Assembly (NCBI GenBank): GCA_944392235.1
Contig: CALXVZ010000012.1
Coordinates: forward strand, 1-32,003
Source: an uncultured Alphaproteobacteria bacterium
Lineage (GTDB): Bacteria; Pseudomonadota; Alphaproteobacteria; RF32; CAG-239
Length of the DNA stretch: 32,003 nt
Direction: 5' to 3'
Position numbers and translations under genes: made by a program. Below are positions 819 to 32,003 of this stretch, in pieces (the stretch's first letter is position 1; the number at the start of each line of letters is the position of its first letter). The notes under the pieces were generated by a model. That model was not told the DNA's origin, searched no databases, and saw nothing but the letters and a program-made list of their open reading frames with translations.

Positions 819-3731
819 ATGATACAAAAAAGTGATGTCAGAGAAGATTTTCTAAAATTTATTCAGTCTATTATGCAACATAATAATGTTGATTCTCTTA
901 ATCTCACTTTGCTTGATTTATGTGATTTTGACAATCTTGATTTAGATGTGTTTATTGTTGATACGCCCTCTCCTATCTTGAAATATAATAAGCTTATTCT
1001 ACTTATAATCGAAAAAGCAAAAAATTCCAGTATAAAAAAGGATGTTCTTGATTATATTCGCTCTTTTCTTTTTACAACTATCGATAAAAATTTGTCTGCT
1101 GATCTTTTGAAAATTGTTAAAAATTGGATTATTTCAGCTATTCCTTTGGATGATTTAAATGTTTATAAATCTCATTGTGCCAATTCTTATATTACTAAGC
1201 TTCTTAATTTTCTTAAAATAGAGGATATTCCTTCCATAGAAGAAACTTTGCAGAAAATATATGAAGAACTCTCTAAAATTGAAAATAAACCAGCTTTTAG
1301 TCGTTTCTATGCTGAATATGCTCTTTTTATCTTACGTTCTTGTGATATTAAACATAAAGATTTAGATCCTTCTTTTTTTGATTTAATTCAAAAGTCGCTT
1401 ACCCTCAAACCTGAAAATAATACAGCAGCTTTTTTATACTTGGGATATGCTTATAAGAATTTCCCTCTGCAACTTTCTTCTTCTGTCAATGATAGCTATA
1501 ATTTAGCAGTGCAATACCTCGAAAAAAGTTCTGCCGCTGGTTCTACTGTGGCTGAAAAATATTTGAAAAAAGTGCAGGAAAAATTATTTCCTCAAAATTG
1601 GTTGTCTTTGATGAATACAGATGTCAACTTACAAGACTTTTTGGAACAATTGAAGAATAAATCTAAAGTCTCCTTTTCTCTTCTCCTCTCAGGACCATAT
1701 GGATGTGGACAAGAAGAATTCGCTAGACAATTCTTAAACCAACTTAATATTAGCTTTGAGGAATTTTCTATTGCCGATTATCCTATTGCCGGTGATAATA
1801 ATATTTATCAGAAATTAGCTAAGTTAGATACTATTAATAAAGCTTATATTATTAAATATGTTGAATCTGTTTTTGATATTTCTAAATCTTCAGGTCTTCT
1901 TCCTATCAGAATGACTTATTTGATGCAAAATAAATTAAAAGAAAATAGAAAACCTATCATCTTTATTGTTGAAGACCTTAATAAATTAAATTTTAATCTT
2001 CAGATGAGCTTTATGTTCAGAATTGCGTTTACTTATATGGATCAACCACAAAAAGATGCTGCTTATAATCTATTCTTTCATAAAAATCCACCTATTGAAC
2101 TAGATTGCTTGAATTGTGTTACTCTTGATGACTTTATCAGAGCTAAAAGAAAAGTTATGCTCTTTAATCTTATGAATGATCATAATAAAATTCTGGAAAT
2201 ATTAACTGATGAGGTTGGATTGAAAAGTAATGATGGTGCATATTCGGCTATTATTGATAATTTTAGCACGGAGCTGATTAATTCTAATATTAATCTATGG
2301 AATTTAACAGATAAACTTATCTCTCTTAAACAATCTCGTTTTACAATGCTCATTTATGGTCCTCCGGGAACCGGTAAAAGCTATTATTTAAGATATTTAG
2401 CTCATAAATTAGGCATAAATACTCTTGAGAAAACTGCTGCAGACCTCTTCTCCCCCTATCAAGGTGAACCCGCTCGTAAAGTTGCTGCAATGTTTGCCGA
2501 AGCTGAACAGAAAAAAGCTATGATCATCTTAGATGAAGCTGATGAAATCTTAAAAAAACGTTCCGATGCTGAAAGAAATGAACATTGGAAAGTTGATATG
2601 ATTAATGCTTTCCTCACTCAGCTTGATAAAGCTAAATATCCTCTTGTCTGCACGACTAACTTTTTTGAAAAAATTGATCCGGCTATTTTGAGACGTTTCG
2701 TTTTTAAACTTAAATTTAATTATTTGACACCAGAACAATGTCAAATTGCTTATCATAATTTTTTCAAAAGAAATGCTCCTAAGGAATTATCCAATATCAA
2801 TAATTTAACCAACGGAGATTTTGCTACAGTCAAAAGTCAGAGCATCTTACTTGATTTTTCTAATGATGATGAACAAATTCTCAAAGCTCTGCGAAATGAA
2901 ATTTCTGCTAAAAGCGGTGTTTCTTATATAGCTACTTCAGAGTTTGATAAAAACGCTGTTAATACTGATTTTGATCAATTAAATTTAATTGAAAATAAAT
3001 TTAAAGAATTTGATAATATGAAAATTGTTATCGGTGGACCTTTTGGTAGTGGCAGAATGAGTTTTGCTCAGCATTTGGCTCTGTCCGTTAAAAGAAATTA
3101 TATTATTGTTAATGATGAAGATATTGAGTGTAAAAATACTATTGATAAAGATAAGGTTGATGAGTTTTTTCTTAAAGCTACCGATCTTAATGCAGTTATC
3201 ATTTTTAATAATCTTAAACTGTTTGCGCCTAAATATAAAACTAATGTCTTTTCTATAAAGCAAACTCTTGAAAAAGTTAGTGGTGAAGCTGCTAATTTTG
3301 ATGCTTATTTTATTCAAAAAATAAAAAATTATCAATATTCCGTTATTGTTATTACGGAAAAATCGCATCTCCTTTTGCAAAATGATAATACTAGGTATTC
3401 GTTCAATTTTTTCATTGATTTTAAATATCTTAATATTAAACAAGTGAGATATCTCTACAAGAAAAGCTTTGGCTTTAATTTGCCATTCTACTTTGGTTCC
3501 GGATCCTGTAAATATATTACTCCGCAATTATTCCAAAATATTGATGCTAATATTAATGCTTTGGGCTTTAGTAATAATCAAAAACAAGTTTATAGATACT
3601 TTATTGACGCATTATCTATCAATAAATCTATCTACTTAAGACGTTATTTGGCTAAATTCTGCTTATTTGTCCTAAGCTTGGCTGGGTTGATTTATATGAT
3701 TAGAAACTTGATGTTCCTATTGAATAATTAA
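819..3731 (+). CDS. Triple-AAA-module ATPase with C-terminal membrane anchor
   Basis: The 970-residue protein has an alpha-helical N-terminus with a TPR/Sel1-like stretch (about 159-256), followed by three AAA-like modules. Module 1 (from about 285) has a broken Walker A, GPYGCGQE at 292-299, and Glu-Asp in place of Asp-Glu at 385-386. Module 2 is intact: GPPGTGKS at 514-521, Walker B ending Asp572-Glu573, sensor Asn614, and an Arg625-Arg626 finger-like pair. Module 3 has GPFGSGRM at 740-747 and Asn-Asn at 797-798 where Asp-Glu is expected. The last 25 residues form a hydrophobic segment with no long tail, so a tail-anchored inner membrane protein with its ATPase modules in the cytoplasm is likely. 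A ribosome site AAGGA lies 6 bases before the ATG. It resembles Cdc48/FtsH-type AAA modules only at motif level. Substrate and partners are unknown. It stands alone, with no operon partner. Confidence 0.85.
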   Translation: MIQKSDVREDFLKFIQSIMQHNNVDSLNLTLLDLCDFDNLDLDVFIVDTPSPILKYNKLILLIIEKAKNSSIKKDVLDYIRSFLFTTIDKNLSADLLKIVKNWIISAIPLDDLNVYKSHCANSYITKLLNFLKIEDIPSIEETLQKIYEELSKIENKPAFSRFYAEYALFILRSCDIKHKDLDPSFFDLIQKSLTLKPENNTAAFLYLGYAYKNFPLQLSSSVNDSYNLAVQYLEKSSAAGSTVAEKYLKKVQEKLFPQNWLSLMNTDVNLQDFLEQLKNKSKVSFSLLLSGPYGCGQEEFARQFLNQLNISFEEFSIADYPIAGDNNIYQKLAKLDTINKAYIIKYVESVFDISKSSGLLPIRMTYLMQNKLKENRKPIIFIVEDLNKLNFNLQMSFMFRIAFTYMDQPQKDAAYNLFFHKNPPIELDCLNCVTLDDFIRAKRKVMLFNLMNDHNKILEILTDEVGLKSNDGAYSAIIDNFSTELINSNINLWNLTDKLISLKQSRFTMLIYGPPGTGKSYYLRYLAHKLGINTLEKTAADLFSPYQGEPARKVAAMFAEAEQKKAMIILDEADEILKKRSDAERNEHWKVDMINAFLTQLDKAKYPLVCTTNFFEKIDPAILRRFVFKLKFNYLTPEQCQIAYHNFFKRNAPKELSNINNLTNGDFATVKSQSILLDFSNDDEQILKALRNEISAKSGVSYIATSEFDKNAVNTDFDQLNLIENKFKEFDNMKIVIGGPFGSGRMSFAQHLALSVKRNYIIVNDEDIECKNTIDKDKVDEFFLKATDLNAVIIFNNLKLFAPKYKTNVFSIKQTLEKVSGEAANFDAYFIQKIKNYQYSVIVITEKSHLLLQNDNTRYSFNFFIDFKYLNIKQVRYLYKKSFGFNLPFYFGSGSCKYITPQLFQNIDANINALGFSNNQKQVYRYFIDALSINKSIYLRRYLAKFCLFVLSLAGLIYMIRNLMFLLNN

Positions 3732-11349: not shown

Positions 11350-12858
11350 TTAGCTTCTCGCCAAGCCTTCGAGATATGCATAGTATCTTTGGACTTTTTG
11401 AAACATCACAACCGCATTCGGCTCTCTGTTTCTATCCGGATGATACTTCTGCACCAAGCGTCTGTATGCTTGTTTCAAGCTTTCTGCATTAAGAGTTTCC
11501 TTAGTTAAGCCGAATAATCTAAAGGCTTCATTGGTTTCTCCCTTTGCCACATATGGCTGGATACCTCTTTCTTCCTTGAAACTTGCAAACTCTGGTCTGG
11601 TTTTAGCTAACTTGCGACATAACTCCAGCACTTGAGCTCTCGATAAGTTTCTGGCTTTGGAATTTTTGCTCAATATTTGATATTGAACCGGTGTTACGAA
11701 CACTCCATTGAAGTCTATCAATAAATCGCCAAAGTTACTAAAATCTCCATCTTGGCTTGACGCTTTTTGACGTTGTTCTTGTGACGGACGTTGATATGCT
11801 TTCGCTTTTTTCTCAACATCGGCATAGAAATCTTTTTGCCAATTTTCGTAGCCACTCTTCTCAAGCTTCAACTTCAAGCGTGCTAACAGAACATTTGTGC
11901 TTTCACTGCTATCCAAGAAATCTTGCCAGAACTCATTCACATACATCTCACAGTTTCGTAAATATTCAAGATGCTGGAACTCTTCTTGTCGAAGTATTTC
12001 TTCTTCAAGCTTAGCTCGCTTTTTCTCAATTCTATCCATTTGTTCTGCCTGAGCTTTTATGAGTTTTTTAGCTTTCATCCTTCCAAAAAATCTATATATA
12101 TAGAAAATCATTGCTATCGCAAAGTGGATATACATTAAATTTCGTAACAGATTTTGCATAGATACATATTTCTCATTACTGTATTTTAAGGTTGCTTCAA
12201 GTATTCCTTTACTCTGCCCCTGATTTGAATATAGTCCGTATCCATCTCTCGTTTTATAGATAAGTCCTTCTGCTCCCTTCATTTTATCATCAGGTAGGCT
12301 AAACTTCAAACTTGATATTTGATAATATTCTTGTTCATTGTCTTCCTTTTCGATAACAATTTCCTGAATATTAGAGTTTGGAACTTTATCTATACTGATT
12401 ACCTTACCATAAGATACTATTTCAAATGATGGTGTCGTATATTTATGCAGAAGAAAAGCTCCTACATAAAATATATTAATACATATGATTAATATCTGTG
12501 ACGGATCTACAACGCAAAATATACAGAAAATTAACCCTGCTATAAATAGCATTACAAGAAAATGAAATACGTTGTGAAGATATTGCTGATATATGACTTT
12601 TTGATCAACCTGACTTATGTAGTTAGAATTATATAAAATAACTCTTTGTCCTTCTGCCTTCAGAGGCGTTTTTGAATAACAGTCCAATGTATCTGCAAGT
12701 TTTACCTTCACAACTTTAGATGAATCTTTCAGATTTAACATTGCGTTATACTCGTCCAATTCTTCCAATGTTGCTACATGGCTTGTTTTGTAAGACTGTT
12801 TGCACGAGCTTAAGCTTAAACTTAATAGACAGCTCAACATTAATAATAATCTTCTCAT
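11350..12858 (-). CDS. Membrane lipoprotein with C-terminal J domain
   Basis: A 502-residue protein with an unusual order of parts. It starts with a lipoprotein signal peptide (basic start, Leu-rich core, lipobox LSSC with Cys19). Hydrophobic segments follow at about 94-135, then another at about 240-260. A charged coiled coil comes next (about 263-300), then a linker, and finally a J domain (about 448-502) with HPD at 473-475 in YHPDRN. J domains recruit and stimulate Hsp70 (DnaK), so the C-terminus should face the cytoplasm while the acylated N-terminus would be outside. No ribosome site is visible; the leader contains GAACTAAAAATTT. Promoter at 12901-12928, terminator at 11302-11330. A membrane-tethered DnaK recruiter is inferred; the client is unknown. 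Confidence 0.8.
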   Translation of the reverse strand: MRRLLLMLSCLLSLSLSSCKQSYKTSHVATLEELDEYNAMLNLKDSSKVVKVKLADTLDCYSKTPLKAEGQRVILYNSNYISQVDQKVIYQQYLHNVFHFLVMLFIAGLIFCIFCVVDPSQILIICINIFYVGAFLLHKYTTPSFEIVSYGKVISIDKVPNSNIQEIVIEKEDNEQEYYQISSLKFSLPDDKMKGAEGLIYKTRDGYGLYSNQGQSKGILEATLKYSNEKYVSMQNLLRNLMYIHFAIAMIFYIYRFFGRMKAKKLIKAQAEQMDRIEKKRAKLEEEILRQEEFQHLEYLRNCEMYVNEFWQDFLDSSESTNVLLARLKLKLEKSGYENWQKDFYADVEKKAKAYQRPSQEQRQKASSQDGDFSNFGDLLIDFNGVFVTPVQYQILSKNSKARNLSRAQVLELCRKLAKTRPEFASFKEERGIQPYVAKGETNEAFRLFGLTKETLNAESLKQAYRRLVQKYHPDRNREPNAVVMFQKVQRYYAYLEGLARS

Positions 12859-22028: not shown

Positions 22029-25000
22029 ATGCCATCTTTTTCAAAAAATAAAACTCAGTTCGATAAAGAACATGTTACTGAAATTATTCAGAAATGCTCT
22101 TTTCTCGGCATATCCTTAACTGAAAAGGAATTTCTTAAAAATCCTCAGCATTTTTCTCATATCGTTGATGTTTATGACAGCAGAATTAATCAATATATCT
22201 CGCAAAATAATTCTCAACTCTTAAAATTACAAACTCAATTTTCCTTAGATGGTTCGCTTACTCCAGTTGAAGCTCTGGTTAAAGCTAGACAGACTTTGAT
22301 TACTGAAGCTCAACAAATTATGATTGCGGAATTTGCAGCTTTCTTAAGCGTTGATAAAAATAATAAAAATGAAAGCTTTGCTTTTGATAATCCTCAATTA
22401 ATGGCCGCTGCTCAAGCTGTTGCTCAAAATGCTCCCTCTCCTACTTCTGCTGAAAATATTGTTGAGCAAATTAAATCTCAACCTCTTTTTCTGTCTTCTT
22501 TTAGAAAATTTACTGAGGAATATAATTCCCAAAATACTCCTTCTTTAGAGAAATCTTCAACTGCTCAAACTTCTTCCGTAAACAATATCGACAGTCTTGT
22601 TCTGGAATTCGAAAAATATAAAGATTCTACTTCTGGTAAACCTTTGTTAGATATTGATGCCAAAAACCTAAAAAAGAAAGATAATTTAGTTTACTTAAAT
22701 AAAATCTTAAATGCTTACAACTTAAAAGGTGATGAGGCTAACTCTTTTAGAGCTTCTTTGTCTCGTCATCACGGAAATCTCCGTGATTTTTTGTTAAAAT
22801 ATCAAGCTTTACAAACTCAACAAGCTGATTTTTCTCATAACAGCGTATTTGAAATTTCTGATAATAAAACTACAGAAACTATTCAATATTCTTTGACGCA
22901 ACAAAAACAACAAGTCGAAGAATTGAAAAGACAGCAAGCTCTTGAAAAACAACAAGCTAAAGAATTGAAAAGGCAGCAAGCTCTTGAAAAACAAGCTCGC
23001 TTAGCTCTGCAAAAACAACAAGCTAAAGAATTGAAAAGACAGCAAGCTCTTGAAAAACAAGCTCGCTTAGCTCTGCAAAAACAACAAGCTAAAGAATTGA
23101 AAAGGCAGCAAGCTCTTGAAAAACAAGCTCGCTTAGCTCTGCAAAAACAACAAGCTAAAGAATTGAAAAGACAGCAAGCTCTTGAAAAACAAGCTCGCTT
23201 AGCTCTGCAAAAACAACAAGCTAAAGAATTGAAAAGGCAGCAAGCTCTTGAAAAACAAGCTCGCTTAGCTCTACAAAAAAAATTGCAAGCTCAGAAAAAA
23301 ATTCAAAAATCCAGACATAGAAAAGCTTTAAAGTTATCTCTGCTTAGACGTTTGAAAAATTGGAGTATTGCTCAAAGAAAGGCTCTTACAACCTCTATTA
23401 CATCTATTGCTAAGTTGCCTAAAAACTTTGCTCATAAATTTATAACTTCTCGCAAGAAACCAAAACTTCAAATTGTAAAGCCTGCTCAGAAAAATATATT
23501 TTCTCGTCTGCTTGATAAAATGCTTTATTCAAGAAAGAATGCTGTTATCAAAAAAATATCCTTGAATATTCAAAATTATAAAAACGCTCTTTCTCAGCAA
23601 AAAAAGGCTAAAATTGTTCAATTTAAACAATCTGTTCGTAGCAAAACTAAGAAAACTTTGAAATATGCCGCAATCACTCTTCCTATTGCTGGTCTTAGCT
23701 ATACTGGATTTAATGCGATGAAAAACGCAAGTCCTGCTTTTAAATTTGATCATATCTCCTTGACTTTTGATAATTTTCATATTTCTCCGGATGTTATGAC
23801 TAAGGCTTCTAATATGTATACAAGTTTCACGGAAAATTTTGATAATCTTCATATTTCACCTGGTGTTGTGACTAAAGCTTCTAATATGTATGCGAGTTTG
23901 ACTGAAACTTTGGATAATTCTACACCTAATATTGATAAATTTTCCACTTCTTTGGCTTGGATACAACAAGATAAAAATGTTGAAAGTGATATTCCTATTA
24001 ATGAGGCTGACTACGATATTCAGGCTCCGCTTATTAAAAATGATATTCTCCATAACGTCCCTAATACAGACTTCTTTAATCTGTGCTTTGATAAAGTTAA
24101 TGTGGATGGCAATAATCATACTAAATACGGAATTCCTAGAAAACTTTATAATGATTTTATGAGAGAAAATAAAGCTATGGCTAATTTCTTTGGTATCGGA
24201 AATTATAGCTCTCTCTCTTTTGACGATGCTCGTATTATTGCTAAAACGCAAATCTATGATAAATATGGTATTGGATATATGCAAAATAAAAGTATCGCCG
24301 CTTATCTCTATTATACTTTAGTTAAAAATCATGAACAAAATTCTTCTGTGGCTTCTCTTGCCTCCTCTGTTATTGATTTTTGCTCTGTGAATGGTGTCGA
24401 TTTATCCGATAAACAAATATCTTCCCTAAATGATATGGCTGCAGGAAAAAATTTCTCAGCGTCTGATTGGCATGCGTTAGTCGCTGCGGTTAATTCTTGC
24501 GCTATTAATCAAACTCTGGAAAAACAATTATTTACATCTATACAACAAAGCCAATTCTTGGCTGATGTCCCTTTTAACGGAGGTTCTCACTCTGAAGAAT
24601 TTGCTAAACAAGCTCAGATTAATGCTGATTTTGCTTATCAGCCTACTTTCGATTTTGAACAAATTAGTTCTAATACTCGAGATGAGGCTCTCTTTGCTGA
24701 TGCGCCGATTTTGCCGGAATTATCTGAACAGTTTCTTGATGAAAATTTTGAAAAACAACTCTTAAATAAACAAAAAGAAAAAGAAATCGAAACTTTCTCG
24801 CGTGTCTACGCACAATGTTGCTATAATAATGTTATCAGACTTTCTTATGGTGATAAACGAAAAGCTTTTGATGATGCTAATAAAACTCTGGCTAGACATG
24901 GTATTCGTGGAAAAATAGATCGCAGACTTTATTGTGCCGGTATGAGTGCCGCTAGTTTCTGTCAAGCTTATGATATCTTTGTGCAAGAAAATCCTAACAG

Positions 25001-25532
25001 CTTTGTTGCTGAAGCGGTTAAAGATATTATCGGAAAATATAAAAATTGCGCTCACAGCTCTGTCGGTATGCGTAATACATTCAAAAAACACTCTAAGCAT
25101 TTGGTTAATTCTAAAAACTTGGAAAAAGATATTAAAAACTATATGAATAAACATAATTATGCTATTCTGCAAGGTGGTTTCCAGAGAAATTCTGCGGGTA
25201 ATCAACATTATAACGGATTTTTCCCTACTATGAATTTAGCTTCTAAAGATGCTTATACATATTGTGCTTACAATAATAATCATTGGGGAAATGAAAAAAC
25301 TTTCTCCAGCGTCTTACGTGACAGACGAAGAGCACGTTTTGGTAAAAGCGGTTGGTATGTTGATGTTTCAGCTTGGATTGATGATTTGGCTCAAGCGAAA
25401 ATTAATCAAGAGCTGAAAGTTAGAAAAACTTATAGACAAGATACTTTTGAGGAAAAATCGCTTATTGACAATACTCAGAAATATTTGGATAGCTTGACTA
25501 ATATTCTTTATCAGAGAATTGTCGGAAGGTAA
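22029..25532 (+). CDS. Giant single-pass membrane protein with coiled-coil repeats and possible Cys/His hydrolase domain
   Basis: An 1167-residue protein, not recognised as a whole. Residues 1-290 are helical and hydrophilic. Residues about 297-420 are a Gln/Lys/Leu/Ala coiled coil built of 22-residue tandem repeats. Residues 420-545 are very basic. One hydrophobic segment lies at about 545-562. A 24-residue duplication follows at 580-627, then a long acidic region. The C-terminus (about 940-1140) is better conserved in style: Cys969 and Cys978 near a helix start, His1060 before Tyr-Asn-Gly, and His1085-Trp-Gly. This could be a papain-like (NlpC/P60 or CHAP) fold, but that is a guess. The basic side suggests the N-terminus is cytoplasmic and the C-terminus periplasmic. 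GAGG lies 8 bases before the ATG. A terminator follows. Confidence 0.85.
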   Translation: MPSFSKNKTQFDKEHVTEIIQKCSFLGISLTEKEFLKNPQHFSHIVDVYDSRINQYISQNNSQLLKLQTQFSLDGSLTPVEALVKARQTLITEAQQIMIAEFAAFLSVDKNNKNESFAFDNPQLMAAAQAVAQNAPSPTSAENIVEQIKSQPLFLSSFRKFTEEYNSQNTPSLEKSSTAQTSSVNNIDSLVLEFEKYKDSTSGKPLLDIDAKNLKKKDNLVYLNKILNAYNLKGDEANSFRASLSRHHGNLRDFLLKYQALQTQQADFSHNSVFEISDNKTTETIQYSLTQQKQQVEELKRQQALEKQQAKELKRQQALEKQARLALQKQQAKELKRQQALEKQARLALQKQQAKELKRQQALEKQARLALQKQQAKELKRQQALEKQARLALQKQQAKELKRQQALEKQARLALQKKLQAQKKIQKSRHRKALKLSLLRRLKNWSIAQRKALTTSITSIAKLPKNFAHKFITSRKKPKLQIVKPAQKNIFSRLLDKMLYSRKNAVIKKISLNIQNYKNALSQQKKAKIVQFKQSVRSKTKKTLKYAAITLPIAGLSYTGFNAMKNASPAFKFDHISLTFDNFHISPDVMTKASNMYTSFTENFDNLHISPGVVTKASNMYASLTETLDNSTPNIDKFSTSLAWIQQDKNVESDIPINEADYDIQAPLIKNDILHNVPNTDFFNLCFDKVNVDGNNHTKYGIPRKLYNDFMRENKAMANFFGIGNYSSLSFDDARIIAKTQIYDKYGIGYMQNKSIAAYLYYTLVKNHEQNSSVASLASSVIDFCSVNGVDLSDKQISSLNDMAAGKNFSASDWHALVAAVNSCAINQTLEKQLFTSIQQSQFLADVPFNGGSHSEEFAKQAQINADFAYQPTFDFEQISSNTRDEALFADAPILPELSEQFLDENFEKQLLNKQKEKEIETFSRVYAQCCYNNVIRLSYGDKRKAFDDANKTLARHGIRGKIDRRLYCAGMSAASFCQAYDIFVQENPNSFVAEAVKDIIGKYKNCAHSSVGMRNTFKKHSKHLVNSKNLEKDIKNYMNKHNYAILQGGFQRNSAGNQHYNGFFPTMNLASKDAYTYCAYNNNHWGNEKTFSSVLRDRRRARFGKSGWYVDVSAWIDDLAQAKINQELKVRKTYRQDTFEEKSLIDNTQKYLDSLTNILYQRIVGR
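22959..23279 (+). repeat. Tandem 66-bp repeat inside the 1167-residue gene
   Basis: Five units of 66 bp begin at 22959, 23025, 23091, 23157 and 23223, the last one incomplete; a shorter related unit precedes them. Each encodes KELKRQQALEKQARLALQKQ plus Gln-Ala. The units are nearly identical at DNA level, so the expansion is recent or kept uniform by recombination. One arginine codon alternates AGG, AGA, AGG, AGA, AGG along the array. Confidence 0.95.
23766..23909 (+). repeat. 72-bp duplication just outside the membrane segment
   Basis: Two units (23766-23837 and 23838-23909) encode similar 24-residue blocks starting Phe-Asp-Asn-Phe/Leu-His-Ile-Ser-Pro and sharing Thr-Lys-Ala-Ser-Asn-Met-Tyr. 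They differ at many third positions, so the duplication is older than the 66-bp array. Confidence 0.85.
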
Positions 25533-25620: not shown

Positions 25621-27462
25621 TTAACGACTAAATACTCTATTCTTTATTTTTTGAAACAAATTTTGCTCTTTCTTTTGTTCTTGTTGTTTTTTTCTGTCTG
25701 TCTCTTGCCGAATATGTTTTGCTCGTTCTGTTCTGAATGTCTCAAGAAACTTAGCACATTCCTCAGGGCTCTTAAACGGCAATTTGGCTATCTTCGGAGG
25801 GCGGGCGACCGAAATCGTTTGTAGGTATGTGCTATTGTAAAATTCATCAGTTCCGGATATCTGATGATCTTTATCTGCACAGAATACTAATATCCTTTCA
25901 TATATATCTCCGGCATATTGCTCTTCTTGCCGTTTTTGTAATTCATTATATTTATCAACTAAGCCTATTAATGTGGCTACGAATAAATTAAGCAGTTTCT
26001 TGTCTTTTAAGGATTTATCCTCTTCACAAGACTTATTCACAATACTCATATTAATATCTACCGTCTGCAGAAATTTTTCTGTTTCTTCTTTTACCGTATT
26101 ATCTTGATTATATTTATACGGTTTTGAAATATCTTCTAGAGCTAGCTCCGGAAATCTTTCTATTATTTCTTCTTCATCACTATGAACCCTAAACCCCTTT
26201 AAAAAACAATACATCCCTTTGGCTGTTTTTATTTGAGGTAGATATTCCAACGGGCTTTTTTCTATCTGAAATACGTTAACATGCATCTTATTTATCAATA
26301 CATCATCTAATATTCCTTTTTTCAGTGCATACGGATATGTCAGAGCAATTAAATCATCTTGGATTAAGTTGGAACTTTGCTCTTTATATGTCTCTGAAAA
26401 ATCTATTTGTTGCATTTCTCTCCCACATTGGCTTTCTAACAAAACCGCTAGTGCGGGATTTTTTTCTTCATCCAGCGATTGTTTATCTCGATTATATATA
26501 TGCAATAAACGTGAAAATATTCTTGAAAATTCTCTCTCTATCCCATCATTCATCATCTGTTGGCGATTGACCGATCCGCTTGCTAAAAATACTGATGTCT
26601 TGGATAATGCTTTATAGCATAGTTCGGGATTTTGCAGATACGGAAAGTCTTTAGGATATGCCTCTAATAAATCCACAATTTCCATCACTCTTTTTCTTTT
26701 TTCCTCTGCAAAACCTCTTGTTATTATTTGATAGTCTATTTCTGTTAAAAGAGATAACGGATATTTTTTCCTTATATCTGATGAAATATCTGCTATTTCA
26801 TGATACTCTCTGTCTGTAATATCTTTATCTTTTTTTAATCCTAAAGCGCAATAGTTCCACTCTTCTCCATATCTTTTATCAAACTCTAGCTTATTTTGTT
26901 CTGACAGTATTTTTTGAATTTCATATAAATATGTTGTATCCTTGATTGCTTGGGGGATTATTTCCATTGCCAAATTACTATATGCTCCCTGCTCTACTTT
27001 ATTTAGCAATACTTCTCTTTCTATATCTTTCTTTTCTTCTGTTGTTAATGGTAGCATTTTGGCTTGTTTTTGAAGTATTTTCTCTTTTATTTCCTCCGGC
27101 AAATCAGATGTTTTTGTCAGTAAATTTACTAAGGCTATTGTATCACGGTTACTTGTATCTTCCGATACTACTTCGGTGACAAACTTTGCTAATAAATCCA
27201 TATTTCTTTTATTTTTTATACTTCGATACCATATATTTTCCAAAACTTCCGTATATGCATCTATATCTTGGGGATTGTTATTTAGATGAGTTTCTATTAA
27301 ATGAAGAAGTTTATATATCACACTGGAGTTATCGGATTTCTCCAAGATACTATCACAAAATTCAACGGTTAAACGTTGTCTTGAGTTACGAAAGCGCATA
27401 ACCTCCGTTGCCACGACTATCGGACTCTGGTTGTTATGCGCTCGCTTTCTGACTATTGTCAT
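25621..27462 (-). CDS. Unknown helical protein, last gene of the VWA-AAA block, 613 residues
   Basis: Not recognised. The protein is acidic-to-neutral, alpha-helical throughout, and may form a helical-repeat (ARM/TPR-like) scaffold. I see no signal peptide, membrane segment or catalytic motif. The last 50 residues are very rich in Lys, Arg and Gln, which could bind nucleic acid or membrane lipids. It begins 11 bases after the stop of the 105-residue gene, so it is co-transcribed with the MoxR-like ATPase. Unlike that gene it lacks a Shine-Dalgarno site and has an A-rich leader (GACTAAAAAATATAAAA). It is convergent with the 1167-residue gene. Being co-transcribed, it may be an adaptor or substrate of the ATPase. 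Confidence 0.8.
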   Translation of the reverse strand: MTIVRKRAHNNQSPIVVATEVMRFRNSRQRLTVEFCDSILEKSDNSSVIYKLLHLIETHLNNNPQDIDAYTEVLENIWYRSIKNKRNMDLLAKFVTEVVSEDTSNRDTIALVNLLTKTSDLPEEIKEKILQKQAKMLPLTTEEKKDIEREVLLNKVEQGAYSNLAMEIIPQAIKDTTYLYEIQKILSEQNKLEFDKRYGEEWNYCALGLKKDKDITDREYHEIADISSDIRKKYPLSLLTEIDYQIITRGFAEEKRKRVMEIVDLLEAYPKDFPYLQNPELCYKALSKTSVFLASGSVNRQQMMNDGIEREFSRIFSRLLHIYNRDKQSLDEEKNPALAVLLESQCGREMQQIDFSETYKEQSSNLIQDDLIALTYPYALKKGILDDVLINKMHVNVFQIEKSPLEYLPQIKTAKGMYCFLKGFRVHSDEEEIIERFPELALEDISKPYKYNQDNTVKEETEKFLQTVDINMSIVNKSCEEDKSLKDKKLLNLFVATLIGLVDKYNELQKRQEEQYAGDIYERILVFCADKDHQISGTDEFYNSTYLQTISVARPPKIAKLPFKSPEECAKFLETFRTERAKHIRQETDRKKQQEQKKEQNLFQKIKNRVFSR

Positions 27463-27473
27463 TTTTATATTTT

Positions 27474-27791
27474 TTAGTCTTTAACCTCAAATGAACAATA
27501 TATGTTCTTGGTTAGAGAACTTCTTTCTAAGACATTTTGCAGTCCTTTACTCGTTACTGAGGCAAATTTCCCTATAAATATGTCACTTACTTCGGGAGAA
27601 TTTACCGCCTCTTCCAATTCATGTAGGCTTGTTATCTCTTTTGTGCCTTTCATATTCTTAATAACGGTTTCTTCGCCTATTGCTTCTATTTTGTAAACGC
27701 GATTACCTCCAAATTCTTTATATGGGCGAGCCATTATTGTTTGCAGAATGATTGTTTCTATCTGATCTTTATTATAATGCTTTTCACTCAT
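27474..27791 (-). CDS. Small unknown protein coupled to the MoxR-like ATPase, 105 residues
   Basis: Not recognised. It is a small, soluble, mixed alpha/beta protein with no Cys cluster and no membrane segment. The start lies 2 bases after the ATPase stop codon, and the ribosome site GGGAG is built from the last codons of the ATPase gene. Translation of the two should therefore be linked, and the products are probably made in a fixed ratio. A role as an accessory subunit of the ATPase is inferred from this position only. Confidence 0.75.
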   Translation of the reverse strand: MSEKHYNKDQIETIILQTIMARPYKEFGGNRVYKIEAIGEETVIKNMKGTKEITSLHELEEAVNSPEVSDIFIGKFASVTSKGLQNVLERSSLTKNIYCSFEVKD

Positions 27792-27793
27792 GA

Positions 27794-30448
27794 TTATCTC
27801 CCTCTCATTTTGTCTTTTAGAGCCACGTTTACTGGAACATCTCGATTATATTCAACGTTTGTTAATTGTATTGCGTCTATATTTTCTTTATCCCATTCGC
27901 TCATATTTTGTAAATATTGGCACAATTCTTGCGCATTGTCATCGCCACTACCTCCGCTGGCAAGCTCGGGATCAACCCTTAGCATTAGTGATGAAACAAT
28001 GTGTGAGTTGGTTATTCCTTCAACCGGTGCCGTTTGACGACTTAAATAGTTGCCGATTATGCTATAATCGCCTTTACTATTTACCTCATTCAAATTGACA
28101 TAGAATACACCATTTTTTGACATTTTTTGTTTGTCGTCTTCGCTAACATTGAAATCTGCCAAAATCATTGTGTTCTGATTACTCTTGTTATAGACTATCG
28201 CCGCTATACCTATTTTTTCATTTTCTCTATCATTTACAAATACGCAGGTAGTTATGAAGTTCTTATTTTTAGAACGTGCCATATCTCTACTAATTTCATC
28301 TCCACATTCGCTGTCTTTGTCTAAATGCGCCGGTTCTTTTGCGTATTTCTTCATATTGTGACTACGCATACTCTTAATAATCATACTATCCGCAAATTGG
28401 TTGGTATTAATTAAGCTTTCTCTGTCTATCTTCATACCTCCGCCTTGAACCGGGGCTACATAAACCTCCTTCAATGGTTTATCGTATGTTGTTTCTATAT
28501 CATAGTTTGGCACAAAGATACGCTGATATTCATCCTCTTTTGCCAGCATTTGAGTGGCTTCAAGCAATGTTGTATCATCAAAGATATCCCCGGCTGTCAA
28601 TTGTTGACCTTTCAAGTCTTCCTTATATTCTTCTTTAATTGATGATATCAGGACTTCCTTAATCTCATCCAACTCAACATTTGGCATATCTTCAGGACGT
28701 GCATTAAACAATTTTGCCACAGAATCTTCTCCAACATAGCCGGCAAACTCAAAGTTTAATCCTTTGGCTGTTTGAACTATTGATTTCCATAGTCCTTCTA
28801 TTTTTGTATCGTCTTCTACTTTATTTTCAGAATCTTTTAAAATACTGTTTAGACTTCCCGGACGTATTAATTCGTAAAGTTTTACAACCAATTCATTTTC
28901 AAGTTTTGTCCCTCTTACCAAGAGTTTATTTTTTTCTCGCTTAGCTATGCGTTTATTCATTTCCCATGCGACTTCTTCAGGACTTTGCTCTTTTGTTGCT
29001 TTTCCAAGATTTTTAAAAGTTGAAGCTCCGGTTTTTCCTTTTGGTGTATTTATTTCTGAGTGCTGATAAAGCTTAAAGACATACCGCAAATCTACAACAG
29101 CTTGATTTGCCAGATATGCTGTGTATCTTTCTGGTAGAGTTTCATCTTTTGATGCTTGCAAAATAATATTTTCTGTTTCTGCCAAAAGTGAACCATAATT
29201 TCTTGCCACTTTAATAATTCTATCAATATGACGAATATTGAATAACTCATCTTGTGGTATTTTTTTCTTTTCTTCCGGTGTTAAGCCGACTGTTCTCATA
29301 TACATCAGGGTATCTGATAACATTTCCGGATTTTTATCAAATACTTCAGGATCCATCATATATACATGGTATGCAGGAACACCTGTTAAATGTTTTAAAG
29401 TTCTTGATAAGTAATCGGCCTTTTCAGCATCCGCAATTTGGCGAATATCAATTCCCATACCTTGACGAGAGATCATCGGTTTAGTCATTTCTTTCGCACT
29501 CAAACCCATATCTTCTGTAGCGTGGTTGGCTGTTCCTAAAAACATAAAAGTCGGCGGAATCTGTGAGTATTTTATTGTGATATCTTTATCATCTTTACCC
29601 GATAGTGATAATGAACCTGTTCCCGGTTCTGAAAAAAAGGCTTCAATTCTTAGCCATGCGTCTATTTTTGGGGCTCTATTTACCTCATCTCTAATAACAA
29701 TTCGGCCATAATCTGGTGAATCAGGATCTGCCAATGACTGCAATAACATACCATTTGAAACCTTAAAACCTAATGTGTTATTATCTTTTTCATATGGAAT
29801 TTTTTCCATCTCCATAACTTTATCTAACACACTTTCTATATAGTCTGGATCATGCTCAATGCCATCCCAATCTATTGCGGTAATTCGTTTGCCTTCTCTT
29901 ACTTCTTGGGTTACGATATCATTACCAAACATTTTTTTCATATAGGCAATAGCATTTTGGGATAAAGATTGCTCTTCATCTACATTGCCCATTTTTATTT
30001 GTGCATCAATTCTACGTTGCTTTTGAGCTTGATTGACACTTAATTCTGTTTTTTGGTGTAATTTTTTACTTTCTTCTTCATTTAACCCATTACAATCAAG
30101 TATAAATGCTCCTCGTGGATGAACAAGTTCTCCTATTGCCTTCATCAAATATGTTTTACCATTACCAGGTGCGCCCATTGCTGTGTAACTATAACTTTTG
30201 CTTTTTTTAGGTGTTCTTGTTTCATCCATTCTTATCAAGATTTCTGTCATATCTTGCATTAATGTCGGATCGGTCACTACTTCTCTTATTAAGCGTCCAT
30301 ATATTCTTTCTTTACTTTCATCTCGCATTGTTGGAATATATATTGCATCTTCTTCTGAAGCCAACCATCTTATTTCTTTTGATATTGAATCTATTATTGG
30401 AATTGGAAATTCTTCTGTTCCCAATTTATGCCAATGCACCGTACTCAT
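27794..30448 (-). CDS. MoxR/CobS-like AAA ATPase with long unknown C-terminal half
   Basis: An 884-residue protein. Walker A is GAPGNGKT at 92-99 and Walker B is IVIRDE with Asp254-Glu255. The sensor-like Asn308 sits in GTANHA, and Arg328 is a possible finger residue. The first 400 residues thus form a AAA domain of the MoxR/CobS/dynein-related kind, with an unusually long insertion of about 150 residues between Walker A and B. Typical MoxR proteins are about 330 residues. Residues 400-884 match nothing I know. MoxR ATPases work with VWA-domain partners as chaperones or metal-insertion factors, and a VWA gene lies directly upstream. AAGGAG lies 7 bases before the ATG. An internal promoter candidate is at 30484-30512. 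Confidence 0.87.
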   Translation of the reverse strand: MSTVHWHKLGTEEFPIPIIDSISKEIRWLASEEDAIYIPTMRDESKERIYGRLIREVVTDPTLMQDMTEILIRMDETRTPKKSKSYSYTAMGAPGNGKTYLMKAIGELVHPRGAFILDCNGLNEEESKKLHQKTELSVNQAQKQRRIDAQIKMGNVDEEQSLSQNAIAYMKKMFGNDIVTQEVREGKRITAIDWDGIEHDPDYIESVLDKVMEMEKIPYEKDNNTLGFKVSNGMLLQSLADPDSPDYGRIVIRDEVNRAPKIDAWLRIEAFFSEPGTGSLSLSGKDDKDITIKYSQIPPTFMFLGTANHATEDMGLSAKEMTKPMISRQGMGIDIRQIADAEKADYLSRTLKHLTGVPAYHVYMMDPEVFDKNPEMLSDTLMYMRTVGLTPEEKKKIPQDELFNIRHIDRIIKVARNYGSLLAETENIILQASKDETLPERYTAYLANQAVVDLRYVFKLYQHSEINTPKGKTGASTFKNLGKATKEQSPEEVAWEMNKRIAKREKNKLLVRGTKLENELVVKLYELIRPGSLNSILKDSENKVEDDTKIEGLWKSIVQTAKGLNFEFAGYVGEDSVAKLFNARPEDMPNVELDEIKEVLISSIKEEYKEDLKGQQLTAGDIFDDTTLLEATQMLAKEDEYQRIFVPNYDIETTYDKPLKEVYVAPVQGGGMKIDRESLINTNQFADSMIIKSMRSHNMKKYAKEPAHLDKDSECGDEISRDMARSKNKNFITTCVFVNDRENEKIGIAAIVYNKSNQNTMILADFNVSEDDKQKMSKNGVFYVNLNEVNSKGDYSIIGNYLSRQTAPVEGITNSHIVSSLMLRVDPELASGGSGDDNAQELCQYLQNMSEWDKENIDAIQLTNVEYNRDVPVNVALKDKMRGR

Positions 30449-30483
30449 TTTTCTCTCCTTATATCTTCATTTCCTATGTTTAC

Positions 30484-30512
30484 ATTTTAGCATATTTTTT
30501 ATATTGTTGCAA
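30484..30512 (-). promoter_or_regulatory. Promoter candidate between the VWA and AAA genes
   Basis: Reverse strand TTGCAA (30512-30507), 17-base spacer, TAAAAT (30489-30484). It would let the ATPase and the two unknown genes be expressed apart from the VWA gene. Confidence 0.45.
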
Positions 30513-30527
30513 TCAGTAATTCTTACT

Positions 30528-32003
30528 TTATCTCGTTTTCATGGATTTTAATGTTTCTTTTATTAATTTCCCCTTAACATCGTTGGTCATTACTTCTTGT
30601 ATTGTGCTATTTCTTAATCTTTTCTTTAGCATCTCCATTATTTTTTCCTGAATTTGTTCTCCGTTTTCTATCCCATCAACATAGTCAATACGCATACAAC
30701 CTTCTTTTTGCATTTCATATATCAATGGTTTGGTGTATCTTCCACCTCCTTCTGTGTCTCCATTTCCTATAAAGAAGCTATCAAAAGTTATTTGCTCATT
30801 TTTCTCTAACATGAGACGTAAACAATCGTTTACCATATTTCCATTCCCTTTGAAATAATCATCGTTATCACCATCCGTAACTGAGAAAATATGGGTAAAG
30901 CCACTTTTTACATGCGGATGTTGTGCCATGTCTTTTGATACATCTTGCAAAAATTGTTGAATTGCTGGTAGCAAAAAGTCATTACATCCGCCTTGTCCAT
31001 CACGAACACTCTCTATATTCTTTCCGATTTCTTTTGTCTTGTTTTCCGGAGTAGCAACTGTTAACGGATATGGTTCTCCCATCATGTAAATATAAACATT
31101 TATTTCTTTGAAGCTACGAGCAGCCTCATATAAAATGCATGATATAGCTAACGCACTTTCAAATGGCCTTCCGGTCATAGAACCTGATCCATCTATCAGT
31201 ATTCCGAAATTGGATTGTGGTAAATGGACATCTTTGATAATTTCATCTTCTGAATATGAACGTTGTGTATCAAAACGTTCAAAATCTCTCATACTTATAT
31301 TAGGATCTCGGTTTTGTAATTTCTTTTGCAACGTCATATGTCTTGCTTTATTTAACGAGGATATTCCCTGCGTTGGTATTAATGACCTTGTTTTTTTTCT
31401 GTGTTCTTTGCCTCGTTTGATACTATCAAACTTGTTTTGCTGGATAATCTCTTTGATTATCTTTTTGGCTACGGCTATTTCATTTTTATATTGTGCCACA
31501 TAACGCTGATATTCATCCCAATTTCCTTCACGATAGAAACGAGCTGCTTGCATATTATCCGGTGTTAATTTTTTCATATCGTTAATATCAAGTATTGTTG
31601 ATTGATCATTTTGCGGGAGATAATTTTCCAGACTATTGTTATTATTATCTCCGTGACCGTCTTGATGATTAGATTTTATTTTTTGTGGTTCTTTACCAAA
31701 CTCTTTATCTTTTTCGTGTTTAGGCAAATCATTTACTTTAATACCGTTTTCTTCGGCTTTTCTCTTTAATTCCCTAATACTTTCGGCCTTTTCCGATAGC
31801 TCTTTAGCTTGTTCTTCACTCATTTGAGGTTTATAGATGTCTGTATTAGGAAGTTCAAATTGTTTTGTATCCGGAAAATTGCCATTCCGATCTTTGCCGT
31901 CTTGATCTTGTCCATTGCCGGATTTACCATTCTGGTCTTTGCCGTCTTGGTCTTGTCCATTGCCGGATTTACCATTCTGGTCTTTGCCGTCTTGGTCTTG
32001 TCC
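30528..32003 (-). CDS. VWA-domain (MIDAS) protein with Gly/Gln/Asp repeats, partial at the right edge
   Basis: The reading frame is open to the window edge, so the true start lies outside. Counting from the internal Met at 31823, a VWA domain begins near residue 205 with a complete DxSxS metal site (Asp211, Ser213, Ser215). A later Thr-Asp-Gly-Asp segment supplies the remaining metal-site acidic residue. VWA domains bind divalent metal and protein partners. With a MoxR/CobS-like ATPase next door, the pair resembles CobT-CobS and other MoxR-VWA systems that remodel proteins or insert metals. The region before the VWA is charged and helical. Upstream of Met31823, in the same frame, are 60 more codons, including three 15-residue repeats. 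The gene is 79 bases from the ATPase gene. Confidence 0.85.
   Translation of the reverse strand, partial: GQDQDGKDQNGKSGNGQDQDGKDQNGKSGNGQDQDGKDRNGNFPDTKQFELPNTDIYKPQMSEEQAKELSEKAESIRELKRKAEENGIKVNDLPKHEKDKEFGKEPQKIKSNHQDGHGDNNNNSLENYLPQNDQSTILDINDMKKLTPDNMQAARFYREGNWDEYQRYVAQYKNEIAVAKKIIKEIIQQNKFDSIKRGKEHRKKTRSLIPTQGISSLNKARHMTLQKKLQNRDPNISMRDFERFDTQRSYSEDEIIKDVHLPQSNFGILIDGSGSMTGRPFESALAISCILYEAARSFKEINVYIYMMGEPYPLTVATPENKTKEIGKNIESVRDGQGGCNDFLLPAIQQFLQDVSKDMAQHPHVKSGFTHIFSVTDGDNDDYFKGNGNMVNDCLRLMLEKNEQITFDSFFIGNGDTEGGGRYTKPLIYEMQKEGCMRIDYVDGIENGEQIQEKIMEMLKKRLRNSTIQEVMTNDVKGKLIKETLKSMKTR
31869..32003 (-). repeat. 45-bp tandem repeat in the VWA gene, reaching the window edge
   Basis: Two identical 45-bp units (32003-31959 and 31958-31914) and a third diverged one (31913-31869) encode GQDQDGKDQNGKSGN. 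The array continues past the edge, so its full length is unknown. Confidence 0.95.

Follow-up and report, generated by a model that had tools for sequence, protein, structure and literature searches.

The window analysed here, a stretch of 32,003 nucleotides, is the complete contig CALXVZ010000012.1 (C12) of the draft genome of an uncultured gut alphaproteobacterium of the CAG-239 lineage (1.29 Mb, 77% complete). Four genes lie side by side on its minus strand: the 3′ part of a gene for a VWA protein (30528..32003), a gene for an 884-residue ATPase of the MoxR/CobS-like AAA+ kind (27794..30448), a gene for a 105-residue protein (27474..27791) and a gene for a 613-residue protein, family c5 (25621..27462). 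An earlier, sequence-only reading of this DNA had described the same four genes, and open reading frames (ORFs) were found at these positions with the spacings it gave: 2 bases from the ATPase gene to the 105-residue gene, and 11 bases from there to the 613-residue gene. The start codon that it assigned to the VWA gene is not genuine, because the contig stops within this gene, inside a 45-base coding tandem repeat (GQDQDGKDQNGKSGN; 31882..32003) in the linker of the protein. The 491 codons that remain, open at the contig end, run from the end of the linker through a CobT-like pre-VWA stretch to the VWA domain. All four genes are real and under purifying selection. In two congener pairs, in which synonymous sites are near saturation, the ratio of nonsynonymous to synonymous substitution rates (dN/dS) was 0.029-0.036 for the ATPase, 0.049 for the VWA protein, 0.033-0.066 for the small protein and 0.14-0.17 for the 613-residue family.

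Three of these genes constitute a conserved core, in which a putative VWA-zincin is joined by a MoxR-like ATPase of 870-910 residues and a protein of about 105 residues. Searches of genome samples recovered 13 ATPase loci in all (the window, L011-L019 and L024-L026), and the VWA and ATPase genes adjoin on one strand in every one of them, across five alphaproteobacterial families. The small gene comes directly after the ATPase gene in all 12 loci that reach that far (four families); the contig of L025 ends first. Similarity among the small proteins is detectable in 11 of the 12. The remaining one, in L026, is assigned by position only: it is 141 residues long, gives no BLAST match to the others and is 17% identical to them in the alignment. 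Because identities drop to 17-28% between families, the association of VWA, ATPase and small genes looks old. The sequence-only reading had named loss of the gene order in relatives as grounds for refutation; this condition therefore holds for the fourth gene and fails for the other three. Nor do the four genes travel as one fixed unit, since the 613-residue protein is confined to close congeners and is absent or replaced elsewhere. The same reading recognised neither partner of the VWA-ATPase pair, and nor did we: neither the 105- nor the 613-residue protein reaches the cut-off of a Pfam or NCBIfam model, and PHROGs and PADLOC gave no match to either at E<0.02. The best match of the 613-residue protein, to NCBIfam AmpH, has an E-value of 1.8e-5, but its 23.5 bits fall short of the cut-off of 266. 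A kinship between the 105-residue protein and the C-terminal domain of the ATPase, suspected by eye, found no support (hhalign 0.2%).

Full-length VWA proteins from related loci (n=11: L011-L018, L024, L025 and L026; L019 and the window copy end short of the HExxH region and are left out) measure 915-1,165 residues, with the 1,123-residue form taken for L011, where the ORF opens further upstream. They consist of an N-terminal HExxH domain, a low-complexity linker of variable length that is rich in Gln, Gly, Asp and Asn, and a pre-VWA stretch with a C-terminal VWA domain. The N-terminal motif, HE[IL][AG]H, is followed 57-62 residues on by E[ND]xx[AV]NR[YF][AS]V or something near it. Both His, the two Glu and the N-R pair are invariant in all 11 proteins; identity between families is 23-28%, and HExxH and the downstream Glu are nonetheless retained throughout. 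The spacing of HExxH and Glu suggests a gluzincin-type active site, and the domain is probably a zincin. It is motif conservation that points this way, because the predicted model is unreliable at the motif. The sequence-only reading was blind to this metalloprotease-like half, which lies off the contig; its presence moves the likely mechanism away from pure remodelling and towards remodelling coupled with proteolysis.

At the other end of the protein, DxSGSM and [ST]DG are present in the VWA domain of the full-length relatives, and the window copy has DGSGSM at codons 271-276 (31193-31176). Its description as a MIDAS-type VWA (metal ion-dependent adhesion site) holds for the DxSxS motif and has to be softened for the site as a whole, which is partly degenerate: the Thr position is N, C or K in the genus and in L024, and T in L025 and L026. 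The window protein matches VWA_2 at E 5.8e-4, below the Pfam cut-off. VWA matches exceed the cut-off in L019 and L025 and fall below it in the other proteins scanned. Compared with CobT, the pre-VWA and VWA region gives an hhalign probability of 85% over 279 columns, or 71% over 50 columns when the uncut alignment is used.

The ATPase has Walker A at codons 92-99 (30175-30152), Walker B at codons 249-255 (29704-29684), a sensor-1 Asn308 and an SR pair at 327-328. Residues G92, P94, G97, K98, D254, E255, N308 and R328 are invariant in all 13 ATPases, and we read R328 as a candidate Arg finger. The earlier claim of a MoxR-type AAA+ and VWA pair of unusual layout is supported. One detail of that claim needs correction: the proposed 150-residue insert is the entire spacing between Walker A and Walker B. 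By residue count, Lys98 and Asp254 are 156 residues apart, versus 64 in a CobS (L037), so the excess over CobS is about 90. Residues 430-884, the C-terminal half, show conservation between families. Profile searches with this half identified no family: Pfam and NCBIfam gave nothing above cut-off, PHROGs and PADLOC gave no match, and the best PDB sequence match has an E-value of 0.047.

The fourth position is the variable one. In the genus, the 613-residue family is present in six of nine congeneric loci (the window and L011-L015, the L011 copy being cut by the contig end), and in four of the nine a 526-residue paralog, c14, stands between the small gene and the 613-residue gene. Among 58 relatives the family occurs in seven, all of this genus and all with the ATPase; one of the seven, G012, has only a weak match elsewhere. 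The N-terminal 100 residues are common to c14 and to a 466-residue paralog elsewhere in genome G006 (L084:17844-19244; E 1e-5). The rest of that paralog is leucine-repeat-like by eye and has no Pfam match, and a 191-residue relative of it adjoins similar genes in G012.

Other families have different proteins at the fourth-gene place. G394 has three proteins of leucine-rich repeat (LRR) type (best LRR E 7.7e-4 to 0.014, below cut-off). In G133 there is a 516-residue, ankyrin-like protein, followed by a DUF6782 putative metallopeptidase (E 2e-17, above cut-off), while G036 has an ankyrin-like protein whose gene is interrupted where the contig stops (Ank_2 E 0.058, below cut-off). The fourth-gene proteins of these three families have a C-terminal module in common (L024b versus L026, phmmer E 6.7e-19 in a ten-protein database; L019 versus L026, about 1e-4), and all three matches to it in G394 lie in the operon. 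Equating this module with the 613-residue family was tried and rejected (hhalign 0.05%). The DUF6782 protein of G133 (L026:13880-15031), directly after the repeat protein, is a second HExxH protein in that operon.

The module is patchily distributed. Nine of the 19 genomes of the genus (this one included) have the ATPase, as do 0/15 other genomes of the family, 0/1 of the order and 1/23 further members of the class in the same sample. In a wider class sample it was found in 5/385 genomes including this one (4/384 other Alphaproteobacteria), and in a phylum sample in 1/398, this genome only; both samples had one or two candidates scored per genome, so very distant relatives may escape. ATPase searches gave no match in phages or in viral contigs (600 stretches examined in one search), and the L019 protein, the only one searched there, had no match in plasmids.

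In the loci of the genus that show both flanks, the module lies between c4 and c8, c7 or c6; the window contig is without the c4 side. The site is empty in six genomes. Gene c4 adjoins c8 at a distance of 8-245 bases in G001, G002, G014, G015 and G018 (c4 of G002 is a 92-residue remnant, and c8 of G001 is in pieces), and it adjoins c6 in G005. At a contig end of G009, c4 is accompanied by the beginning of the VWA gene, and the missing ATPase of this genome is probably an assembly gap. The tally for the genus is thus 10/19 with the module and 6/19 with an empty site, the remaining three being G007, G013 and G016. Pairwise identities of the ATPase correlate with those of the flanking genes (r 0.90 and 0.92 over 28 non-independent pairs), a pattern that fits mostly vertical descent with losses and some recombination near the module edge. 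Between G003 and G011, c3, c4 and c13 are 98-100% identical, c9 92%, the module 71-79% and the far flank (c8/c6) 64-65%. Cassette swapping between these two genomes was considered and rejected: the breakpoint is near the module edge, but the far flank has diverged as well, and the module is not singled out. In the window, the convergent neighbour is c8 (22029..25532, plus strand), a 1,167-residue protein with a coiled-coil-like repeat. We place it outside the module because it is also present in module-less congeners, beside the empty site. It contains a 66-base tandem repeat and has no Pfam match; by eye, it also shows a hydrophobic stretch and, towards the C-terminus, a conserved region.

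The nearest parallel to this organisation lies in DUF2201 (PF13203), where peptidase-like and VWA-like domains likewise share one polypeptide beside a MoxR-like ATPase (pairs L048 and L049). Three DUF2201 loci scored above cut-off: two, with a VWA-type protein, adjoin a MoxR-like ATPase of about 410 residues, and none was seen beside the third, L050, a 282-residue peptidase-like frame. Their motifs read HEILH in L049 and HHVLH in L048. The DUF2201 proteins have 409-456 residues, in contrast to 915-1,165 here, and their ATPases about 410, in contrast to 870-910. An extra conserved subunit and repeat-protein partners also distinguish the present loci, in a comparison that covered the VWA protein and ATPase of the DUF2201 loci only. 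PF13203 gave no row in five full-length VWA proteins (E limits 1 and 0.5) and no match in G000, G036 or G083. The principle of an HExxH-VWA protein with a MoxR partner is already known from the DUF2201 pairs, and the set described here is distant, outside the DUF2201 and CobT models.

CobS/CobT shares the layout of N-domain, charged linker, pre-VWA stretch and VWA domain. However, its N-domain is unrelated by hhalign (0.15%), and the present ATPase is longer, by about 90 residues between Walker A and Walker B and by roughly 450 at the C-terminus. The CobT N-domain model PF06213 gave no row in the VWA protein scans and no match in G000, G036 or G083; CobT_C matched at E 0.038-0.13 and 12.3-14.1 bits, below its cut-off of 21. 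The NorQ/NorD, CbbQ/CbbO and RavA/ViaA pairs are similar as MoxR AAA+ proteins with VWA adaptors, and to our knowledge the NorD, CbbO and ViaA adaptors lack HExxH. NorD contains a disordered region besides its N-domain and VWA domain, and its partner NorQ, at 30 kDa, is far smaller than the ATPase here (PMC9976466). The MoxR-vWA ternary systems combine an AAA-VWA core with a third component and variable modules (PMC7159879). Unlike in those systems, the third component is a protein of about 105 residues, the variation lies in a repeat protein encoded separately, and HExxH is N-terminal on the VWA protein (11/11). The window proteins gave no Pfam row at E<=1 and no PADLOC match for VMAP, iSTAND, FtsH or beta-propeller. 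Among the papers listed by literature searches on MoxR-VWA and related systems, none was seen to describe this gene set.

We tentatively propose, while granting it rather less than even standing, that the operon encodes an ATP-driven machine for protein remodelling and processing that acts on the repeat protein encoded beside it. The MoxR-like protein would form a ring, as expected from its family. The VWA protein would serve as adaptor, its VWA domain gripping the client and contacting the ring, and its flexible Gln/Gly/Asp-rich linker would tether the N-terminal HExxH domain, a presumptive zinc-binding protease. The 105-residue protein may be a third subunit, acting as cofactor or assembly factor. 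The downstream gene would supply a dedicated client or recognition subunit, a repeat or helical protein that differs by lineage: the 613- and 526-residue proteins in this genus, LRR proteins in G394 and ankyrin-like ones in G036 and G133. ATP hydrolysis would then remodel this partner, or a target bound to it, and hand that to the protease domain. Precedent for such a scheme appears in the literature on MoxR AAA+ proteins, whose VWA adaptors hold a client peptide as ATP hydrolysis alters its shape (PMC7159879), and on NorQD, where the adaptor is predicted to put a VWA finger into the ring (PMC9976466). Remodelling coupled to cleavage would be the simplest reading because the adaptor bears the tethered HExxH domain, and the fourth gene would be the best client or recognition candidate because an adjoining repeat or helical protein is replaced between families. 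The candidate new remodelling system of the sequence-only reading survives as an AAA-VWA pair with unmatched partners, with a probable protease half added and the fourth gene removed from the core.

A number of results weigh against this proposal. Pfam AAA matches are below cut-off, none exceeding it for the window ATPase; the best curated match, of AAA_5 to the L026 ATPase, has an E-value of 1.3e-3 and 19.2 bits against a cut-off of 22. Structure prediction was carried out, and the AlphaFold models are too weak to name folds for the ATPase or the HExxH half. The ATPase model is poor (pLDDT 58.3), with much of its AAA part, where the helix-2 insert of the AAA fold would lie, under 50 pLDDT. 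No zincin fold was obtained for the HExxH half, whose model drops below pLDDT 50 from residue 123 to residue 217 and resembles no PDB entry at E<=0.001, and profile tests of this half against DUF2201 and other HExxH proteins were not significant. The CobS match was not used as proof of kinship: its motifs are in register with those of the ATPase, but the hhalign probability is 0.44%. L016-L018 hold the core without a co-directional fourth gene, so a neighbouring client is not obligatory. Finally, dN of the 613-residue family is 1.9-2.6 times that of the ATPase and its dN/dS 2-6 times, but unusually fast evolution of the fourth gene had to be discarded, as the flanking genes have a similar dN/dS (c4 0.18-0.20, c8 0.12-0.16). 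Its rate is consequently no evidence for a client or recognition role.

The replacement of the fourth gene by different repeat proteins between families, like the patchy presence and the empty site in six congeners, would also suit an immune-like conflict system, with a swappable LRR, ankyrin or helical protein as sensor, the AAA-VWA pair as switch and HExxH as effector. A precedent exists in Kaur et al. 2020, who describe MoxR-vWA cores accompanied by a third component, by variable modules and, in rare cases, by metallopeptidase domains (PMC7159879). Such a role is nevertheless rather doubtful. The four window proteins have no PADLOC match at E<=1, models of the ternary systems gave no Pfam row in the window proteins, L012, L018 or L019, and the 613-residue family has a dN/dS no higher than its flanking genes. 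The ATPases are unmatched in phages, viral contigs and, for the L019 protein, plasmids. In the flanks, which were scanned for defence genes in part, one gene about 24 kb off has a sub-cut-off IteA match.

A maturation chaperone in the manner of CobST or NorQD, activating or metal-loading a specific target, with HExxH as a metal or binding site and not a protease, draws on the CobT-like layout, on the partial CobT alignment and on the description of NorQD and CbbQO as maturation machines (PMC9976466). We regard it as unlikely, given that the CobT N-domain is unmatched (PF06213 also lacks a match in G000), that no metalloenzyme gene was recognised among the annotated neighbours of the module, and that the LRR- or ankyrin-like partners do not resemble enzymes. 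About as unlikely, in our estimate, is a receptor-protease built on an AAA-VWA chassis, in which the fourth gene would encode an exchangeable LRR, ankyrin or helical sensor whose recognition event would allow the ATPase to free or feed the tethered zinc protease. The C-terminal -Arg tails common to the VWA protein, the ATPase and most repeat partners would then be a peptide handle read by the VWA domain or the third subunit.

These tails were noticed post hoc. A C-terminal Arg ends 11/13 VWA proteins, 11/12 closed ATPases, 5/6 members of the 613-residue family and 3/3 LRR proteins of L024, compared with a background of 19/338 ORFs sampled from G006, of which one is a paralog of the 613-residue family. 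It is missing from the small protein (0/12), from c14 (0/4) and from all five L026 genes. An unrelated 376-residue family of the genus ends in Arg in 8/10 module-bearing and 4/8 other genomes (G007 counted among the latter), and the tail was accordingly rejected as a module-specific sign. That the repeat proteins are exported effectors, with the AAA-VWA-zincin as a pre-secretion unfoldase or processing station, is quite improbable: the G394 LRR proteins and most 613-residue-family members do have basic C-terminal tails, and some other -GR/-SR-tailed proteins of the genus are hydrolase-like by eye, but the ATPase and VWA protein bear the same kind of tail, which occurs in module-less congeners too.

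Few AAA+ systems are as poorly understood as the MoxR-VWA machines. If the remodelling and processing machine proposed above is real, and an AAA ring brings a tethered protease to bear on LRR- or ankyrin-like proteins that are specific to a lineage, then ATP-driven remodelling, proteolysis and variable recognition would be combined in one small operon, providing a tractable case for what a VWA adaptor recognises. Two protein families take shape from the comparison as well: one of ATPases, spread over five alphaproteobacterial families, and one of third subunits, present in at least three of these. Neither matched a named family here.

Some further proteins were observed along the way. In G006, the 376-residue protein (L089:11785-12915) is adjacent to a 242-residue protein (L089:11044-11772); both end in GR and have no Pfam match. 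The former shows, by eye, a Cys...His pattern like that of a papain-type hydrolase and has a homologue in 18/58 relatives, all of this genus. A Cys/His likeness between it and c8, also seen by eye, was rejected (best BLAST E 1.1). Another G006 protein (L080:12435-13982; 515 residues), with no Pfam match above cut-off, has an N-terminal hydrophobic stretch, the motif YHEKAHFFHD and a GR end. In the window itself, 11350-12858 encodes a 502-residue protein whose J-domain (449-496), close to the C-terminus, is its sole domain above cut-off, and 819-3731 encodes a 970-residue protein with an AAA domain in mid-protein (PF00004 E 2.5e-32), for which NCBIfam gives the anti-phage ATPase IteA as top match (E 1.9e-23; 83 bits, the cut-off being 510).

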